A stretch of 11,851 bases of DNA, from NCBI GenBank assembly GCA_030681075.1, contig JAUXUE010000059.1, forward strand, positions 1 through 11,851. The letters are read 5' to 3'. Positions within the stretch are counted from its first letter, which is position 1, and each line of letters starts with the position of its first letter. This DNA is from Candidatus Amesbacteria bacterium (lineage in GTDB: Bacteria > Patescibacteriota > Microgenomatia > CAZETR01 > Amesbacteraceae). The notes beneath the pieces are model-generated. The model worked only from the letters and a program-made list of their open reading frames with translations. It had not been told where the DNA came from and made no database searches. Shown here piece by piece: positions 2 through 10,101 of the stretch. The position numbers were made by a program, and so were the translations under genes.

Positions 2-1498
2 AAGACAAATGTAAATATAGATCGCAAGAAATTATTACTTCGCTTAAATGATTTGCAATATAGCCGCAATGATATGGCCTTTATCCGAGGAACATATCGT
101 GTTAGAGGGGATTTGTTGGATATTTATCCCGCCTATCAGGATACAGGATACAGGATACAAGCCTCTGGAGACGAAATCACAAAAATTTCTAGTATAAATC
201 CGATCACAGGTGAAGTCATTTCAGAAACCAAAAAAATAATAATCTATGCCGCCAAGCATTTTCAGGCTGATAAAGAGAGTTTTAAGAGTGCATTTGTCCA
301 GATTGAATCAGATTTAAAGATGCAGGTAGATTTATTAAAATCTCAAAATAAGGTATTAGAGGCGCACAGAATTCAGCAAAGAGTGACATATGATCTGGAA
401 ATGATACAGGAACTTGGTTACGTCAATGGAATTGAAAATTATTCCCGTTATTTTGATGGAAGAAAGCCCGGCGATGCGCCTTATTCTCTACTCGACTACT
501 TTCCGTCTGACTATTTGACAATTATTGACGAATCGCATATATCTGTTCCTCAAATCCGAGGTATGTACAATGGAGACAGGTCTAGAAAGCAGACTTTGAT
601 AGATTATGGATTTAGATTACCGTCAGCTCTGGATAATAGACCTTTGAAATTTGATGAGTTTATGAGACGAGTTGGACAGACTGTCTACGTTTCAGCGACC
701 CCCAATGAATGGGAAATTTCTCTTTCCGAAAACAAGATAGTAGAACAATTGGTTAGACCGACTGGCCTTATTGATCCCTTGGTTGAAATTCATCCGACTA
801 CTGGGCAAATCCAAAATTTGATAGACAAAATTATTGAGAGGACTTCAAAACACCAAAGAGTTCTCGTTACTACAATGACCAAGCGAATGGCCGAAGACTT
901 GGCAAACTATTTGGATGAGCAAAAAATTAAAGTCCATTATTTACATTCTGATTTGGATACATTGGAACGCTTAGATATTTTGGATGATTTACGGGCGGGT
1001 AAATATGATGTCATAGTAGGAATAAATTTACTCCGTGAAGGCCTGGATTTACCGGAGGTCTCTATGGTGGCTATATTGGATGCTGACAAAGAGGGATTTT
1101 TGAGATCAAGAACTAGCTTAATTCAGACTATGGGCAGGGCTGCCCGGCATGTCGAAGGAACGGTAGTCATGTATGCAGACAAGATCACCGATTCTATGAA
1201 AAATGCGATTGATGAAGTGACCAGAAGACGCAATATCCAGCTCGTTTACAATCAAAAAAATAATATTACTCCACAATCGATAACCAAAGCTATCAGGGAA
1301 AGAATTGTCACAAAAGAGGAAAAAAATATTATAGATGCTTCCGACGTCGACATGTCAAAGGTTAATCAGTTAGTCCCAGAGGATCGCATGAAACTCATTA
1401 GACTCATGACTCGTCAGATGAATGCAGCAGCCAAGTCCCTCGAATTCGAGCTGGCAGCGAAAATTAGGGATAGAATTAAGGAGATTATATTAACCTAA
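2..1498 (+). CDS. uvrB: Excinuclease ABC subunit B, 5'-truncated by window edge
   Basis: UvrB is the damage-verifying helicase-like subunit that UvrA loads on DNA and that recruits UvrC. The frame is open from base 2, so about 498 C-terminal residues are visible and roughly the first quarter, including Walker A, lies outside the window. The visible part begins in the conserved stretch leading to RGTYRVRGD. Numbering from base 2, I see the Walker B/motif II DESH (176-179), SATP (231-234), YNGDRSRK, the helicase C-terminal half with GINLLREGLDLPEVS and QTMGRAARH (375-383), and a C-terminal UVR helical hairpin (about 462-496) that binds UvrC. The internal TTG at 53 is not the start, because homology continues upstream of it. 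The stop overlaps the stop of the convergent gene by 4 bp. A 7-bp tandem repeat lies at 137-159. Identification is near certain. Confidence 0.98.
   Translation, partial: KTNVNIDRKKLLLRLNDLQYSRNDMAFIRGTYRVRGDLLDIYPAYQDTGYRIQASGDEITKISSINPITGEVISETKKIIIYAAKHFQADKESFKSAFVQIESDLKMQVDLLKSQNKVLEAHRIQQRVTYDLEMIQELGYVNGIENYSRYFDGRKPGDAPYSLLDYFPSDYLTIIDESHISVPQIRGMYNGDRSRKQTLIDYGFRLPSALDNRPLKFDEFMRRVGQTVYVSATPNEWEISLSENKIVEQLVRPTGLIDPLVEIHPTTGQIQNLIDKIIERTSKHQRVLVTTMTKRMAEDLANYLDEQKIKVHYLHSDLDTLERLDILDDLRAGKYDVIVGINLLREGLDLPEVSMVAILDADKEGFLRSRTSLIQTMGRAARHVEGTVVMYADKITDSMKNAIDEVTRRRNIQLVYNQKNNITPQSITKAIRERIVTKEEKNIIDASDVDMSKVNQLVPEDRMKLIRLMTRQMNAAAKSLEFELAAKIRDRIKEIILT
137..159 (+). repeat. Tandem 7-bp repeat CAGGATA, about 3.3 copies, inside uvrB
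   Basis: Three perfect copies of caggata lie head to tail, followed by a partial ca, in the uvrB segment just after RGDLLDIYPAY. The unit length is not a multiple of three, so the copies are read in three different phases (giving QDTGYRIQ) and gain or loss of one unit would frameshift uvrB. Three units (21 bp) are neutral for frame. Confidence 0.9.
1418..1485 (+). repeat. uvrB 3'-end direct repeat, copy A (native, in frame)
   Basis: This is the part of uvrB encoding the UVR hairpin. Its last 50 bp (1436-1485) recur at 2062-2111 with 46 of 50 bases identical. The upstream part (1418-1435) matches the second copy only weakly, at ATGAATG and scattered bases. Offset to copy A' is 626 bp. The four differences in the strong block are all third-codon-position, synonymous changes. 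Confidence 0.93.
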
Positions 1499-1971
1499 CG
1501 AAGGAGTAATGCAACTGGAATAATATCCTGAAAACCCGTTGCCTCAATTAATGATCTAACATATTCATCTGGATCAGGATAGACATTATTTGCGTCACTT
1601 TCAATTCTCATATAAGTTGTTACACCATTTTGGCCTCCTCCTCCAGAACTCGAAGTTGCGCGATAAAGTATCTTATTTTTATCGCAATATATTCCAGGAG
1701 CTTGACCCCTTATACGATTAACTTCTAATTGTATATTTCTATACATTTCCATCATATTGTCAGATTCTCCTACAACCGTTCTATTAATTGTCGCCATTAA
1801 ATCACCAATTGTATTGGGTTTTGCCTTGGTTGGTATAAGAAGACTTGAAGATCTTTCATCTTGAAGCTCTACGAGTGCATACACAATGCCAGAAGCTCGT
1901 GTTACCACTTTAGCAAAATGCCCTTTTTCCAATAAGTCGTGGCTCCATGAATCTGTATCAATGAATCTCAT
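1495..1971 (-). CDS. Hypothetical protein, 158 aa, unrecognised
   Basis: I do not recognise this protein. It is soluble-looking, with no signal peptide or convincing membrane segment. It has a Ser/Gly-rich loop (SSSGGGG, 107-113), an Asn/Asp/Pro-rich turn region (126-135) and a hydrophobic C-terminus (IIPVALLLR). I choose ATG at 1971 over the GTG at 1986 because a TTGACA-17-TATTGT promoter (2006-1978, minus strand) puts the -10 box over the GTG start region and exactly 6 nt before the ATG, implying a leaderless mRNA. The gene is convergent with uvrB (TAG/TAA overlap at 1495-1498) and sits between the two uvrB-tail repeats, so it is probably a laterally acquired cargo gene. Function is unknown; an intact reading frame and a promoter support it being a gene. 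Confidence 0.7.
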   Translation of the reverse strand: MRFIDTDSWSHDLLEKGHFAKVVTRASGIVYALVELQDERSSSLLIPTKAKPNTIGDLMATINRTVVGESDNMMEMYRNIQLEVNRIRGQAPGIYCDKNKILYRATSSSGGGGQNGVTTYMRIESDANNVYPDPDEYVRSLIEATGFQDIIPVALLLR

Positions 1972-1977
1972 GATGGC

Positions 1978-2006
1978 ACAATACACCTATATTTATTTAT
2001 TGTCAA
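1978..2006 (-). promoter_or_regulatory. Predicted sigma70-type promoter for the minus-strand hypothetical gene
   Basis: On the minus strand a perfect TTGACA (2006-2001), a 17-bp AT-rich spacer and TATTGT (1983-1978) are followed by 6 nt and then the ATG at 1971. Transcription would be expected to begin at or next to the ATG. It is back to back with the plus-strand promoter copy that starts at 2015. Confidence 0.6.
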
Positions 2007-2014
2007 CACTTCCG

Positions 2015-2045
2015 CTTGAACAAAACCCGAATTGTTCGATAAAAT
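2015..2045 (+). promoter_or_regulatory. Duplicate of the uvrA promoter region (copy P)
   Basis: The 17-mer cttgaacaaaacccgaa (2015-2031) is identical to 2448-2464 in front of uvrA. Here it forms TTGAAC (2016-2021), an 18-bp spacer and TAAAAT (2040-2045), the same geometry as the uvrA promoter. It also carries an inverted repeat, gaacaa (2018-2023) and ttgttc (2032-2037), that the uvrA copy lacks. It now points into the displaced uvrB tail, not into uvrA, so it is either a relic or the promoter of a micro-ORF. Confidence 0.6.
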
Positions 2046-2121
2046 GAATGTTGTGATTGAATCCCTCGAATTCGAGCTGGCTGCAAAAATTAGGGATAGA
2101 ATTAAAGAAATACAACGATAA
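2044..2121 (+). pseudogene. Displaced second copy of the uvrB 3' end (UVR-motif fragment A')
   Basis: In frame from ATG 2044 to TAA 2119-2121 this encodes a 25-residue peptide whose core SLEFELAAKIRDRIKEI is identical to the end of UvrB, with a different last pair of residues (QR instead of ILT) and a diverged start (NVVIE for NAAAK). The DNA match is 46/50 over 2062-2111 with only synonymous changes. The most likely reading is a uvrB remnant left by recombination. A weaker alternative is a translated micro-peptide: a TAAAAT box ends at 2045, with an in-frame GTG at 2053 seven nt later. A bare UVR hairpin could in principle compete with UvrB for UvrC; nothing here proves expression. Confidence 0.75.
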
Positions 2122-2122
2122 C

Positions 2123-2151
2123 TTGACAATTTCATATTTTAGACTTAGACT
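2123..2151 (+). promoter_or_regulatory. Predicted promoter for the small gene at 2159
   Basis: A perfect TTGACA (2123-2128), a 17-bp spacer and TAGACT (2146-2151) begin 2 bp after the stop of the uvrB remnant. The ATG at 2159 lies 7 nt beyond the -10 box and the ATG at 2156 lies 4 nt beyond it, so the transcript would be leaderless or nearly so. Confidence 0.6.
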
Positions 2152-2158
2152 AACGATG

Positions 2159-2404
2159 ATGGCTAGATGCTGTGAAGTACATTCAGAAGTTACAGAGAGT
2201 GGCTATGGTACTTGGACAGTTGGCAATCTTAAGGTAAAAGTAATACAGAGAATTTCTGTAAAAGATTTGCCGGCTCAGTGTGCGATAGATAGTGCCATAG
2301 CTAGAGTAAAAAGTCAGTCTTTAACTGGAGGCATATCTCCATGTAAGTGTGGGCTCCAAATCTCCTGGGATCCCATTATCATTCCAGTTGATGAAGTAAA
2401 ATAA
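2159..2404 (+). CDS. Small Cys-containing hypothetical protein, 81 aa
   Basis: I do not recognise this protein. It has five cysteines (4, 5, 41, 62, 64), including CC near the N-terminus and a CKC pair near the C-terminus, which might bind metal but match no motif I can name. There is no signal peptide or membrane segment. The frame runs upstream to a TTG at 2057, but that stretch reads the uvrB remnant out of phase and lies upstream of the TTGACA/TAGACT promoter, so I place the start at ATG 2159 (or 2156). It occupies the same position in its repeat unit (after a uvrB tail, before a uvrA promoter copy) as the unrelated minus-strand gene does in the other unit. A decayed or spurious ORF is possible. 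Confidence 0.55.
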   Translation: MARCCEVHSEVTESGYGTWTVGNLKVKVIQRISVKDLPAQCAIDSAIARVKSQSLTGGISPCKCGLQISWDPIIIPVDEVK

Positions 2405-2447
2405 TATTCAAATTGAACAGAATCCTCAGTTTATTATTAATCAACCA

Positions 2448-2478
2448 CTTGAACAAAACCCGAAACGTGATATACAAT
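2448..2478 (+). promoter_or_regulatory. Predicted uvrA promoter (copy P')
   Basis: TTGAAC (2449-2454), an 18-bp spacer and TACAAT (2473-2478) precede uvrA. Unlike other starts in the window, this leaves about 25 nt of leader, and GGGGTGAG (2496-2503) sits 6 nt before the uvrA ATG as a plausible Shine-Dalgarno sequence. The first 17 bp are an exact repeat of 2015-2031. uvrA thus has its own promoter separate from uvrB. Confidence 0.65.
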
Positions 2479-2509: not shown

Positions 2510-5335
2510 ATGAATGACAAGATAATTATCAAAGGAGCCAGGGAGCATAATCTAAAAAATGTGGATCTGGAGATACCAAAAAACAAGTTGGTTGTGTTTA
2601 CGGGATTATCTGGAAGTGGCAAGTCTTCCATGGCCTTTGACACAATTTATGCCGAAGGGCAAAGAAGATATGTCGAGAGTTTGTCGAGTTATGCCAGGCA
2701 ATTTTTGGGAATTATGGATAAGCCTGATGTCGATCAGATTGTCGGATTATCACCTGCGATATCTATATATCAAAAATCTACCAGCCACAACCCCAGATCG
2801 ACTGTGGGAACGGTAACCGAAATTTATGATTACTTAAGACTCTTATTTGCTCGTATTGGTCATCCTCATTGTCCCCAATGTGGCCATGAGATAGCCCATT
2901 TATCACCACAGCAAATAGTTGAACTTATTCAGGAGTTAGCCAATCAGGCACTAGGCACTAGTAAATTAGTCAGAATATTAATTCTGGCACCAGTAATTAA
3001 AGACAGGAAAGGAGAATTTACAGATTTATTTAGTAATCTCAGACAAAAAGGCTATAGCAAGGTCAGATTGGACGGTAAAATAATTGGTCTAGGTGAAGAT
3101 TTGTTTATTCTGAAAAACAACAAGCACAAAGTCGATGTGGTGATAGACAAGCTTATATTTGACAAAAAGACCGATATCAAATCGAGATTATTTGAAGCCG
3201 TCGAGGCAGCCCTTAAGCTATCGGACGGGTTGTGTATAGCTGGCATTGTTAAGGACAAAAGTTTTGATTTCCCAGACAAACCACTAGATATCGAAGACCA
3301 TCTTTATTCTGAAAAATTTGCCTGTCCGGTTTGCAATCTTTCGCTTCCAGAGATAGAACCCAGATTATTTTCTTTCAATTCTCCCCATGGTGCTTGTCCT
3401 ACTTGTACAGGTCTGGGAGTAAGACAAAAGATTGATCCTGAGGTTGTTCTCAATCCTAGGTTGACTATTTCTGAAGGAGGAATACTGCCTTATGCCAATA
3501 CATTTGCTTATGATGGTTGGTTTGCCAAGAAAATATCCTCTCTGGGAATCCCCCTCAAAGTTCCTATTGGTGAATTGTCAAAAAAAGAAAGAGATTTAAT
3601 ATTGAATGGTGGCGAAGGATTCGAAGGTTTTATCGCAAACCTGGAAAGAAGGTACCGGGAAACTCAATCGGATTTTGTCAGAACTGAAATAGAAAAGTAT
3701 ATGCGAAAGGAAATTTGTCCAGTTTGCAAAGGTCAGAGACTTAAGCCAGAGGCCTTGGGAGTAACCATAAACAATAAAAATATAGTTGATGTGGCTCATA
3801 GCCCAATTTTAAATTGTATAGATCTCCTAAGTAACCTAAGCAACTTAAGTAACCGAGAAACTATTATCTCGAGGCCTATACTAAAGGAAATTGGCGATAG
3901 ACTGGGATTTTTGACATCAGTTGGATTAGGTTATCTGACACTCAATAGATCAGCAAACACTTTGTCTGGGGGTGAAGCTCAGCGGATCAGGTTAGCTTCC
4001 CAGATAGGGTCCGGATTATCAGGAGTTTTGTATGTACTCGACGAACCGTCTATTGGATTACATCAACGGGATAATCAAAAGCTAATTGATACCTTGAAGA
4101 GACTTCGAGATTTGGGCAATTCAGTTATAGTGGTCGAGCACGACGCAGACATGATGAAACAGTCTGATTGGTTGGTGGATTTTGGTCCTGGAGCAGGGGA
4201 ATTGGGTGGCAAAGTAATTTCAGAGGGAACACCTGCACATGTAATGCAAGATAAAAATTCATTGACAGGAAAATATCTATCAGGCAAAAAAACTATTAAT
4301 ACCTCACCCCTAACCCCTCTCCTGAATTCAGGAGAGGGGAACGCAAGGGGAGAGGTGTTAGAAATCCGCGGTGTTACCCAAAATAATTTAAAAAATATCA
4401 ATGTCAAGTTTCCACTCGGAAAACTGATAACTATTAGTGGTGTCTCAGGATCTGGCAAATCGACACTTCTGACGGACGTTCTCTATCACGCGATGGCCAG
4501 GCATTACAATCCCGAGCATAGAGAAAAGCCTGGAGCTTATAAAGAATTAATTGGTCTTGAACACATCAATAAAGTAGTCATGGTTGATCAATCTCCTATT
4601 GGCCGGACTCCGAGATCCAATCCAGCAACTTACACTGGTTTATTTACTCATATCAGAGACCTATTTGCCTTAGTGCCTGAAGCTCGAATCAGAGGTTATG
4701 GAATCGGCCGATTCTCATTCAATGTCAAGGGAGGCAGGTGTGAAGCTTGCCAAGGTGAAGGTCAGCTAAAAATTGAAATGCAGTTTTTGCCAGACGTTTA
4801 TGTCAATTGTGAAGTCTGTGGTGGAAAGCGTTATAACTCTGAGACATTGGAAGTTGTATATAAAGGTAAAAATATATTTGAAGTCCTGTCTATGACGGTA
4901 GAGGAAGCTCTAGAATTTTTTAGATTTCTGCCTCCTGCTCGTGAGATACTTCAGACTTTAGTTGATGTAGGTTTGGGTTATATCAGACTTGGTCAGCAAG
5001 CACCAACGTTGTCAGGAGGCGAGGCACAGAGAGTTAAATTATCAGCAGAGCTTTCAAAACGGGCAACCGGCAAGACATTTTATATTCTTGATGAACCAAC
5101 CACGGGACTTCATTTTGCCGATCTGGAAAAATTATTAATTGTTTTAAGAAGATTGGTATCATCTGGAAATACAGTGGTTGTCATTGAGCACAATCTCGAT
5201 GTGCTCAAAAATTCTGACTGGATAATTGACCTTGGTCCCGATGGTGGGGACCTTGGCGGCCACCTCGTCGCCTCCGGCACTCCCTCCCAAATCTCCAAAT
5301 CCAAGAATTCTTATACCGGCCAATATCTTCGTTAA
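2510..5335 (+). CDS. uvrA: Excinuclease ABC subunit A
   Basis: UvrA is the dimeric, DNA-scanning ABC ATPase that recognises distortions and loads UvrB in nucleotide excision repair. At 941 residues it is full length. Motifs in order: Walker A GLSGSGKSS (32-40), the conserved GTVTEIYDYLRLLFARIG region leading into a zinc-type CPQC, further CxxC pairs (CPVC, CPTC, CPVC), ABC signature LSGGEAQR (about 485), Walker B LDEPSIGLH, second Walker A GVSGSGKST (about 644-652), zinc module CEAC ... CEVC, second signature LSGGEAQR (about 834) and LDEPTTGLH. ATG 2510 has an SD-like GGGGTGAG upstream. Oddities: the usually charged linker between the ABC halves is encoded by a GC-rich palindrome (SPLTPLLNSGEGNARGEV, about 600-617), a 9-bp tandem repeat encodes LSN three times, and the normally SI(D/E)QK motif reads SIYQK. 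No frameshift is seen. Confidence 0.99.
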   Translation: MNDKIIIKGAREHNLKNVDLEIPKNKLVVFTGLSGSGKSSMAFDTIYAEGQRRYVESLSSYARQFLGIMDKPDVDQIVGLSPAISIYQKSTSHNPRSTVGTVTEIYDYLRLLFARIGHPHCPQCGHEIAHLSPQQIVELIQELANQALGTSKLVRILILAPVIKDRKGEFTDLFSNLRQKGYSKVRLDGKIIGLGEDLFILKNNKHKVDVVIDKLIFDKKTDIKSRLFEAVEAALKLSDGLCIAGIVKDKSFDFPDKPLDIEDHLYSEKFACPVCNLSLPEIEPRLFSFNSPHGACPTCTGLGVRQKIDPEVVLNPRLTISEGGILPYANTFAYDGWFAKKISSLGIPLKVPIGELSKKERDLILNGGEGFEGFIANLERRYRETQSDFVRTEIEKYMRKEICPVCKGQRLKPEALGVTINNKNIVDVAHSPILNCIDLLSNLSNLSNRETIISRPILKEIGDRLGFLTSVGLGYLTLNRSANTLSGGEAQRIRLASQIGSGLSGVLYVLDEPSIGLHQRDNQKLIDTLKRLRDLGNSVIVVEHDADMMKQSDWLVDFGPGAGELGGKVISEGTPAHVMQDKNSLTGKYLSGKKTINTSPLTPLLNSGEGNARGEVLEIRGVTQNNLKNINVKFPLGKLITISGVSGSGKSTLLTDVLYHAMARHYNPEHREKPGAYKELIGLEHINKVVMVDQSPIGRTPRSNPATYTGLFTHIRDLFALVPEARIRGYGIGRFSFNVKGGRCEACQGEGQLKIEMQFLPDVYVNCEVCGGKRYNSETLEVVYKGKNIFEVLSMTVEEALEFFRFLPPAREILQTLVDVGLGYIRLGQQAPTLSGGEAQRVKLSAELSKRATGKTFYILDEPTTGLHFADLEKLLIVLRRLVSSGNTVVVIEHNLDVLKNSDWIIDLGPDGGDLGGHLVASGTPSQISKSKNSYTGQYLR
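3827..3853 (+). repeat. Imperfect 9-bp tandem repeat in uvrA (LSN x3)
   Basis: Three 9-mers, ctaagtaac / ctaagcaac / ttaagtaac, encode LSNLSNLSN followed by R in a loop of the first ABC half. The unit keeps the reading frame, so copy-number change would only lengthen the loop. Confidence 0.8.
4301..4356. repeat. GC-rich palindromic repeat element embedded in frame in uvrA
   Basis: The core is a perfect 26-bp palindrome at 4314-4339 (half-site cccctctcctgaa, centre GAATTC). It is enclosed by outer arms 4301-4310 (acctcacccc) and 4347-4356 (ggggagaggt) that pair at 9 of 10 positions. Its base composition is unlike the AT-rich DNA around it. It is translated as part of the UvrA inter-domain linker. 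The ctcacccc/ctctcc type of sequence resembles widespread bacterial palindromic interspersed repeats; I infer it is a mobile repeat tolerated in a flexible linker, like Rickettsia palindromic elements. Confidence 0.8.
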
Positions 5336-5360: not shown

Positions 5361-5953
5361 ATGTCTTTTAAACTCGAATTCGATCTAATGATAAATAGTG
5401 AAGCATATGAGCCAAAAGCTCATGCAATACCTTCGCTGGTAAGTTGGCTTAGAATAGTGACAATGCTTAACGCCAAGCCAGGAGACGATATTGTTGTCCA
5501 ACCGATTATACTGGTTCTAAATCGGTTGTAGAACAATGGCTGAAAACGCCAAAATTACTTGTATATTTATATGGAAGTCCTAGCAATATACTCGAGAATG
5601 GTTGGTATGGATATTTAACTCTATATCTAAATGAAATTAATCATTCATTACAAACCGAGATTACGTATGGAATATTTGATATTTCTCATTCGAATATGGG
5701 TTACACAACAAGGGCACTAGATATGGCTCTACGGCTTGTTGAATACGCTTGTGTTACCTTCGGTGTTCCACTAACTGCCCATGCTACAGAAGTAAGCGAT
5801 GAGAACCCGGGGTCAATGAAGGTACTACTAAAAAATACTTATGTTTTAACGACTACTAACAATAAATCTCCAATTCGTATGGGTGGGAGTAATATGCTTG
5901 CTCAAAAATATCCATCTAATTTTCTTAATCCAAATAAATATTCAATTTGGTAG
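5361..5953 (+). pseudogene. Frameshifted gene, possible GNAT-like acetyltransferase relative
   Basis: From ATG 5361 the frame runs MSFKLEFDL... to GDDIVVQ, then hits TAG at 5529-5531. A second frame, open from 5471, continues smoothly as DYTGSKSVVEQWL... to TAG at 5951-5953. Joined near 5499-5503 they give one protein of about 197 residues, so a single-base loss (net -1) explains the break. The segment from MGYTTRALDMALRLVEYACV to NPGSMKVLLKNTYV resembles the core of GNAT acetyltransferases (acetyl-CoA-binding helix, then N-x-x-S and a late strand), though the R/Q-x-x-G-x-G/A loop is not well kept. The gene sits directly after uvrA and before a RAYT element, in an accessory slot. A sequencing or assembly error could also produce the break. 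The family call is tentative; the split frame is clear. Confidence 0.65.
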
Positions 5954-6030
5954 AAATAACTTTGTTCAGATAGTCTCGATTCCTCCATTCTCAAAACCTC
6001 CAAAGGCCAAGGCTATTTTCTGAGTTAAAG

Positions 6031-6053
6031 CTTTCCACCCCAAGGGTGGAAAG
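6031..6053. repeat. REP-like hairpin, left end of RAYT element
   Basis: Perfect 10-bp arms ctttccaccc (6031-6040) and gggtggaaag (6044-6053) surround a CAA loop. The hairpin abuts the RAYT stop codon (6054-6056, minus strand). It matches the reverse complement of the right-end hairpin at 22 of 23 positions. On the plus strand it is followed by ttattct, so it might also end transcription from the upstream gene. Confidence 0.88.
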
Positions 6054-6725
6054 TTATTCTAAATCAATAGTTGCATGTTTAATTAGTTCTAGTTCCCGCG
6101 CGTAGTCTGAATGATTCAGAACAAAATTTTCATAATTGAATTTGTCTCCAAATCTATGTAGCACATAGTCTGGATTGGTGATTGCTGAATTTCCACTGAT
6201 AAATTCTGGAAAAGAAGACCATGGATAGGTTATCAGATGACTTTTATAAATCAGTGACGAAACAAGAGGATTGAGATGTATGTATCTGGACACATGTAAA
6301 AGCTGCTCCTCTGATTCGATTTCTACAGATTTAAAGACACCTTGAAACAAATGACCGACCCTGTTGTGTCTTGTGTTGTAATATCTTGTGTAGCTATTTG
6401 TAAATCTGGAAAGAAATATAGTAATACCATTGTTTACGTTTTGTCTCAAGAGAAAGTGCCAATGATTTGGCATTAACACATATGCGACAATGTCGACTAA
6501 TTTAGGTTGCAATACCAAAGAGGATAGAATTCTGTTCTGATCTGACTTTGATAAAGATTTATACCTAGATAGTTTAACAGCGGGTTTAATCGTCTGATAA
6601 TATCTCATTGTGAACAATGCTTGTCTATAATCTGAGTCTATAATAAATGTTGGCTGCTTTGCTACTCCCCGATTAAATGTGTGATAAAAGCCTTCGTTAA
6701 CAAATGGTGATATTCTGCTAGACAT
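6054..6725 (-). CDS. REP-associated tyrosine transposase (Y1_Tnp/HUH family)
   Basis: This 223-residue protein has the RAYT layout: an N-terminal FYHTFNRGV strand, then AYVLMPNHWHFLLR with the HUH metal-binding motif HWH (88-90), then a helix NSYTRYYNTRH whose Tyr112, 115 or 116 would be the nucleophile, followed by the hallmark RVGHLFQGVF (122-131) and RYIHLNPL (147-154). RAYTs are single-strand DNA nucleases/transposases linked to the spread of REP palindromes. I prefer ATG at 6725 (MSSRISPFVNEG); an in-frame GTG at 6740 falls inside the right hairpin. The frame is complete with all core motifs, so it may be active. The upstream hairpin could also affect translation or transcription of the gene, which is an inference. 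Confidence 0.93.
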   Translation of the reverse strand: MSSRISPFVNEGFYHTFNRGVAKQPTFIIDSDYRQALFTMRYYQTIKPAVKLSRYKSLSKSDQNRILSSLVLQPKLVDIVAYVLMPNHWHFLLRQNVNNGITIFLSRFTNSYTRYYNTRHNRVGHLFQGVFKSVEIESEEQLLHVSRYIHLNPLVSSLIYKSHLITYPWSSFPEFISGNSAITNPDYVLHRFGDKFNYENFVLNHSDYARELELIKHATIDLE

Positions 6726-6732
6726 TTCTCTA

Positions 6733-6755
6733 TTTTCCACCCTTGGGGTGGAAAG
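6733..6755. repeat. REP-like hairpin, right end of RAYT element
   Basis: Arms tttccaccc (6734-6742) and gggtggaaa (6746-6754) flank a TTG loop, with an outer T-G wobble pair (6733/6755). It is the reverse complement of the left-end hairpin except for one base at 6733. It lies in the 56-bp gap between the divergent starts of the RAYT (6725) and the transglutaminase gene (6782). Confidence 0.88.
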
Positions 6756-9683: not shown

Positions 9684-10090
9684 TCCGTTTATTTTTCCGT
9701 ACTGTCTCTATTAATCTACTCGGAATTTATCTGGCTTCTCAGATTCTCAACGGTGTAATTGTCTACGTCGGGGGAGTATCGACTTTGCTTATGGCTGCCT
9801 TGGTAATTGCAGTAGTAAACTTGTTTGTCAGACCGGTTATCAACTTGTTGTTACTACCAATCAATCTTATTACTCTTGGCATGTTTCGCTGGGTATCCAA
9901 TTTGGTTACCTTGTTTATGGCTACCCGCCTGATTCCAAATTTGCAAATTCGCTCTTTTGATTTTGCAGGTAGTAATTTGTATGGAATTATTATTCCACCT
10001 ATTCATTTTTCTGCTTTCATGGCATTTGTCGTTGCTACTATCACAATCACCATTACTTTTCATTTCTTGTATTGGCTGTTTCAAGACTAA
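9680..10090 (+). CDS. YvlD / phage holin family 4 small membrane protein
   Basis: This 136-residue, very hydrophobic protein has about four predicted membrane helices (around 8-25, 33-50, 55-80 and 108-134). The NLFVRPVINLLLLPINLITLGMF stretch (47-69) is the hallmark of the PF04020-type family (N-x-x-x-RP ... LP-x-N-x-x-T-x-G-x-F). Despite the holin name, the family is mostly chromosomal and its role is unclear; envelope-stress functions have been suggested for Bacillus members. Its ATG overlaps the uvrC stop (ATGA, 9680-9683), so translation is probably coupled. The downstream secG promoter lies partly within its 3' end. There is no evidence of a prophage here. Confidence 0.87.
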   Translation: MIRLFFRTVSINLLGIYLASQILNGVIVYVGGVSTLLMAALVIAVVNLFVRPVINLLLLPINLITLGMFRWVSNLVTLFMATRLIPNLQIRSFDFAGSNLYGIIIPPIHFSAFMAFVVATITITITFHFLYWLFQD

Positions 10091-10101
10091 TCGTATATAA
10101 T
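10072..10101 (+). promoter_or_regulatory. Predicted secG promoter, leaderless
   Basis: TTGGCT (10072-10077), an 18-bp spacer and a perfect TATAAT (10096-10101) are followed by 6 nt and the ATG at 10108. The -35 box lies inside the end of the preceding gene. This is one of the clearest examples in the window of a promoter that places the start codon at about +1. Confidence 0.65.

Follow-up and report, generated by a model that had tools for sequence, protein, structure and literature searches.

The window, meaning the whole stretch of DNA analysed, is a single contig (C70) of 11,851 bp that contains no N. It belongs to a draft genome of a Candidatus Amesbacteria bacterium (G000; 636,582 bp in 105 contigs, 90.39% complete). 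The subject of this work is the interval between uvrB and uvrA, in which the end of uvrB and the promoter of uvrA are each present twice. The stop codon of uvrB (1496-1498) is followed by a minus-strand open reading frame (ORF; 1495-1986), a uvrA promoter box (P), a displaced copy of the uvrB tail (A'), a plus-strand ORF, a second promoter box (P') and uvrA itself. The tail copy inside uvrB is called A, and the two small genes are called cargo 1 and cargo 2 (Table 1).

The doubled ends of uvrB and uvrA

A and A' are identical at 46 of 50 positions (92%), and a UvrB search matches A' as a fragment of 24 codons (E 2.2e-4), the reading frame of which ends at an in-frame stop like the genuine uvrB C-terminus. 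The 17-mer CTTGAACAAAACCCGAA is exact at both 2015-2031 and 2448-2464 and is embedded in a pair of 37-nucleotide (nt) repeats of 78% identity; two matches with three or fewer mismatches occurred in none of 200 shuffles (mean 0.04). Judged by the UvrB match, A' is derived from uvrB, and judged by the box of the relatives (below), P is derived from the uvrA promoter. The repeats confirm the doubled uvrB tails and doubled uvrA promoter starts described in the initial annotation, together with its four-part order of uvrB tail, minus-strand gene, P, A', small gene, P' and uvrA.

Table 1. Features of the uvrB-uvrA region (positions in the window)
Feature	Positions	Strand	Remarks
uvrB, 3' part	53..1498	+	Gene entered internally at the contig start; Pfam UvrB_inter, Helicase_C, UvrB, UVR; A within the final 63 nt
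A, uvrB tail copy within uvrB	1436..1485	+	UVR motif SLEFELAAKIRDRIKE; direct repeat
Cargo 1	1495..1971	-	158 aa from ATG 1971; 163 aa if GTG 1986; no family assigned
Promoter-like site, cargo 1	1978..2006	-	TTGACA-17-TATTGT, 6 nt upstream of ATG 1971; leaderless if used; consensus match only
P, first uvrA promoter box copy	2015..2031	+	-10-like TAAAAT at 2040-2045
Junction, P leader to A'	2032..2061	+	Similarity to the stretch following P' not above chance
A', displaced uvrB tail	2062..2111	+	Frame continues to KEIQR*, TAA ending at 2121
Promoter-like site, cargo 2	2123..2151	+	TTGACA-17-TAGACT, 4 nt upstream of ATG 2156; leaderless if used; consensus match only
Cargo 2	2156..2404	+	82 aa, contains Cys; convincing relative not found
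P', uvrA promoter box	2448..2478	+	-10-like TACAAT at 2473-2478
uvrA	2510..5335	+	941 aa; ATG 2510

The closest named matches of UvrA are mainly from Patescibacteria (Daviesbacteria 61%, WWE3 59%, Paceibacterota 56-57%), and Firmicutes and Chloroflexi come next at about 55%. Downstream of uvrA, the minus strand at 6054-6740 carries a gene similar to REP-associated tyrosine transposases, which scores 46 of 80 bits and is therefore under the curated cut-off. In the sister species G001 an ORF separates uvrA from the transposase-like gene; of this ORF, only the final 17 residues, 94% identical, were found at 5361-6050 of the window, the rest of which is occupied by short ORFs.

The uvrB-uvrA gap and the uvrA promoter box in the family

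The family set comprises 14 genomes including G000, one genome per species, and the comparison is thus between species and genera rather than strains. uvrB and uvrA stand in the same order on a single contig in 12 of the 14, G000 among them; in G012 the pair is split between contigs and G006 has no strong uvrB match. The distances between the two genes in the 12 genomes are -4, 35, 40, 280, 324, 404, 465, 550, 598, 745, 1011 and 1156 bp. Gene starts were picked mechanically, and the distance of -4 belongs to G001, where the probable uvrA start is the ATG at 4791, lying 44 bp past the end of uvrB. Twelve relatives have the locus. The gap is empty in three of them (G001, G009 and G013) and filled with ORFs in nine; in G001 the promoter box is overlapped by the uvrB stop. 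Control gaps nearby are narrower in range: -4 to 32 bp from uvrC to the next gene (nine genomes), -170 to -101 bp from the preceding gene to uvrC (ten genomes) and 70 to 255 bp for the pair beyond that (nine genomes), a gap that contains secG in the window.

The contents of the filled gaps have little in common. When 45 ORFs from all ten filled gaps, including that of G000 and the main gene of G012, were compared, one convincing link was found: the plus-strand gene of the same-genus pair G010 and G011 (52% over 44 aa, E 5e-12). The minus-strand gap genes of the same two genomes (9847-10095 and 2371-2601) do not match each other. Weaker matches of low-complexity type join G002 to G004 (Pro/Lys-rich, E 1e-6) and G008 to G003 (E 0.001). 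Nine gap proteins from six of the nine filled relatives (G004, G005 and G007 lay outside this sample) gave no Pfam family match at E 0.1. In all ten cases the gap has a lower G+C content than the stretch of uvrB before it, by 0.01 to 0.11, the flank in G012 being only 63 bases long. Small Pro/Lys-rich plus-strand ORFs of 40-62 aa were observed in the slot of several relatives (loci L123, L129, L125 and L127 of G010, G011, G002 and G004, respectively).

As far as these sequence comparisons reach, small genes turn over in the uvrB-uvrA gap of this family, and the contents of this slot are mostly unrelated between species. The idea put forward earlier, that the gap is a swap site for small genes, is supported in the same way by the nine filled and three empty relatives. 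The candidate that a long uvrB-uvrA gap is exclusive to the family was rejected. An ordered uvrB-uvrA pair was present in 35 of 80 fetched loci, with gaps of -4 to 5230 bp, and the gap is at least 298 bp in six loci from other Patescibacteria (L014, L017, L019, L026, L034 and L050); the remaining 45 loci have no ordered pair within the stretch examined.

The double unit itself was found once. In the nine filled gaps of relatives, G012 included, the best match to a second box has 5 mismatches of 16 and the best match to a second A has 10 mismatches of 30; neither repeat was found. Because of this, the double unit is special to G000 among the genomes compared, and derived. Neither a four-part arrangement shared by all relatives nor an origin of A' and P from unrelated loci, either of which would speak against two stacked alleles, was encountered: the relatives have a single box and a single tail.

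All 13 family genomes that have the locus, G000 among them, carry the box TTGAAYAAAACCCGAA upstream of uvrA, with a -10-like hexamer after it. Exact copies occur once in each of 12 relatives and twice in G000, both at the window locus. With up to one mismatch, the box is found ahead of uvrA in the 13 family genomes and at a single further site elsewhere, in G010 (1 mismatch). G006, where the uvrB match is only weak (E 8.5e-5), has no box. A longer 17-mer, TTGAAYAAAACCCGAAA, is shared by 12 of the 14 family genomes and occurs in 1 of 359 other genomes of the class, there at a 3-kb locus without uvrA; its final A is missing in the first P of the window and in the box of G012. The conserved block (2016-2031 and 2449-2464 in the window) spans the -35 element and the spacer of the family uvrA promoter and occurs nearly once per genome. 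The block may serve as the operator of a regulator specific to uvrA. A role as a general damage box is unsupported, the box being almost confined to the uvrA promoter.

The two cargo genes

The stop codon of cargo 1 overlaps that of uvrB. Its start is more likely ATG 1971 than GTG 1986, because the promoter-like sequence TTGACA-17-TATTGT ends at 1978. Among 5.8 billion proteins cargo 1 has one relative, P0002, a protein of 163 aa encoded on a contig of 2182 bp, with 64-65% identity (65% at 99% coverage) and an ungapped alignment across 163 columns. This alignment supports cargo 1 as a real gene. Family searches with cargo 1 gave no Pfam match at E 1, a best PHROG match at E 0.17, no PADLOC match at E 5 and no NCBIfam match at E 0.001, and searches of plasmid, phage and viral contigs gave no relative. 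Cargo 2 has no convincing relative in 5.8 billion proteins or in phages and no Pfam family at E 1. The best match of the cargos to solved structures is at E 0.33, and their structure models are of low confidence and unusable (mean predicted local distance difference test score 33 for cargo 1 and 39 for cargo 2).

In both cargos a TTGACA-17-TAnnnT site ends 4-6 nt ahead of the ATG. When ten intervals were drawn at random 200 times, the mean count of this pattern together with an ORF of 35 codons or more was 0.08 per set, and the maximum was two, which equals the observed two; the pattern was picked after it had been noticed, and chance equalled the observed count at least once. A leaderless TTGACA promoter common to the cargos of the family was rejected, as it is present in one of ten filled gaps, that of the window. 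Going by the sites at their starts, the two cargos could be self-contained units, each with its own promoter-like site and a leaderless start, workable in either orientation. The two cargo ORFs share the 13-mer ATYATTCCAGTTG near their 3' ends (1512-1525 and 2377-2390; C-terminal IIPV), which was scored as a 14-nt inverted repeat and has only two further genomic sites within one mismatch.

Origin of the double unit

The four sites at which A and A' differ are all third positions and all synonymous. For random independent changes the chance of such a result is about 0.002 at equal rates, or about 0.005 if transitions are threefold more frequent, as a naive estimate. The sister species shares the A' state at three of the four sites and is unlike both copies at the fourth. 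The 30 nt after P and the 30 nt after P' differ at 14 sites (p 0.0002 compared with A/A', a comparison biased by the selection of the A/A' stretch for high identity), and their alignment is no better than a shuffled one, its score being reached in 394 of 500 shuffles. Because the differences between A and A' are all synonymous and the stretches that follow the two boxes are unalike, an origin of the units as diverged alleles is more likely than one as locally made copies, a conclusion held with moderate confidence. A resemblance of P and its leader to the sister species is unsupported; its score was reached by 36 of 500 shuffles for P and by 40 of 500 for P'.

The explanation that we favour, with a probability of roughly 0.55, is that the gap is a slot in which two alleles have been joined head to tail, one being added beside the resident. 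DNA consisting of a uvrB tail, a gene and a uvrA promoter would have come from a diverged relative and been placed next to the resident allele, leaving that allele in position. This would require recombination at a shared flank, either the uvrB tail or uvrA, and in addition either an end-joining event as a second step or an intermediate in circular form. The same order would result from one crossover with a circular fragment and from a linear fragment of which one end recombined by homology and the other was joined illegitimately. The import from a different lineage, its route by natural transformation and the crossover type are our inferences. A recombinase was not found in the slot, the only inserted ORFs of which are the two cargos. 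The initial annotation had likewise placed two alleles side by side, which fits the synonymous A/A' sites and the lack of similarity downstream of the two boxes; the single crossover that it proposed is one of several events that would give the same order. Transformation is possible as the route because a ComEC-type Competence domain is present in both G000 and G001 and natural competence has been shown for Saccharibacteria (PMC10633639); horizontal transfer in Patescibacteria is already known (PMC12455944).

A local origin, for which a donor is unnecessary, would be the tandem duplication of an empty A-P unit of about 100 bp followed by the independent insertion of a small gene into each unit. 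Precisely such an empty unit is found in the sister species, and genes occupy the gap in 9 of 12 relatives. A displaced A' should, however, drift freely, yet none of its differences from A changes an amino acid, and at the three polarised sites the changed copy is A, the functional one. The similarity after P and P' would also be expected near the A/A' level and is at chance, subject to the bias just mentioned. This origin is considered unlikely.

Another explanation is that co-occurring strains, one with cargo 1 and the other with cargo 2, were written serially into one contig by the assembler. A serialised two-haplotype bubble would yield exactly A, cargo 1, P, A', cargo 2 and P', and the draft is fragmented. 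The assembly of G012 breaks at the same place: uvrB and uvrA are on two contigs (L170 and L171) with an exact overlap of 99 bp that takes in the tail of uvrB together with 36 bp at the start of the gap, where strain variation may exist. Such a join is opposed by the absence of N from the window, by the junction of the P leader with A', where no shared sequence is visible by eye, so that a join at a shared word is not obvious, and by a distance between the haplotypes of about 8% in a conserved coding stretch, which would be far for a single bubble. An assembly join of two haplotypes is improbable on this evidence, somewhat more so than the duplication; it is a serious alternative all the same and is not removable by computation here. 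The crossover of a circle, one-sided integration and the haplotype join are indistinguishable from the present sequence.

A mobile element with its own recombinase, which would have used the uvrB 3' end as its attachment site, delivered one of the two cargos and displaced the uvrB end now seen as A', is very improbable: its location matches the habit of integrative elements, which commonly integrate at gene 3' ends and restore the gene, and A contains a 12-bp perfect palindrome (CTCGAATTCGAG), but this palindrome is accounted for as the LEFE codons of the UVR motif, no recombinase family was found in the gap (Pfam at E 0.1 for the nine sampled proteins of relatives and at E 1 for the two cargos), the copied P is the uvrA promoter and not element DNA, and no second A was found in the nine filled gaps.

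Several further points, besides the assembly join and the selection of the A/A' stretch, weigh against the joining of two diverged alleles. The scar is present in one genome only, on a contig without a read-level check, and the polarised A/A' sites are few, three in number. When the whole 37-nt P/P' repeat, box included, is compared with A/A', the difference is not significant (8/37 against 4/50 differences, p 0.11). No genome with just one of the two cargos was found: searches of 372 other genomes of the class gave nothing convincing for cargo 1 (with P0002 as the query) or for cargo 2, for which two weak matches, in G276 (E 0.023) and G082 (E 0.042), have internal stop codons. No stacking remnant was found in the two-gene gaps of relatives. 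Other gaps nearby are variable too, with 9 to 8264 bp from uvrA to the next conserved gene (five genomes) and -33 to 864 bp from the gene before uvrB to uvrB (nine genomes); the uvrB-uvrA slot is one among several variable places in the region.

The joining of two slot alleles can be compared with known processes. Single-crossover (Campbell-type) integration of a circular fragment produces a direct repeat of the homologous segment, and would likewise leave both cargos in series between the repeats; a plasmid backbone or a circle is not seen here. In homology-facilitated illegitimate recombination (PMC3240628), linear DNA is joined through homology at one of its ends only, which would give the order of the scar with no need of a circle; the other end is joined illegitimately. 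That process is known from experiments, whereas here there is the natural end product alone, with its junction at 2032-2061. Flexible island slots are exchanged between clonal frames by homologous recombination, according to PMC4033161. These replacement flexible genomic islands resemble the uvrB-uvrA slot in that differing genes occupy one site between conserved genes and exchange by homology is proposed. In the islands the differences near the edge are mostly synonymous; in this study the four A/A' differences of a single genome are all synonymous, and the identity of uvrB to that of G001 varies with no clear trend at the 3' end. The islands encode exposed structures; the slot holds one to three very small genes, and neither the two cargos nor the nine sampled proteins of relatives gave a Pfam family. 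The slot was also compared between species and genera, and an allele would have been added beside the other and not replaced.

Island exchange by homologous recombination and horizontal transfer in Patescibacteria are thus already known. What is less usual is a very small slot between uvrB and uvrA that is empty or changed by species and that, in one genome, holds a stacked pair with a recognisable scar. Among the literature matches listed, the titles and abstract openings describe no gene slot between uvrB and uvrA for Patescibacteria. A broader scheme is doubtful at present: the gap would be a family-wide, integrase-free slot for gene capture in which transformation stacks alleles and the scars erode, so that the two-gene slots of relatives would be old stacks and G000 a stage before erosion. 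The uvrA promoter box provides an exact handle for locating more cases in the family, and the gap is a site at which orphan small genes can be sampled family-wide. The double unit would illustrate, as a concrete intermediate, a way in which streamlined bacteria may acquire or exchange tiny genes at sites between housekeeping genes with no mobile element involved.

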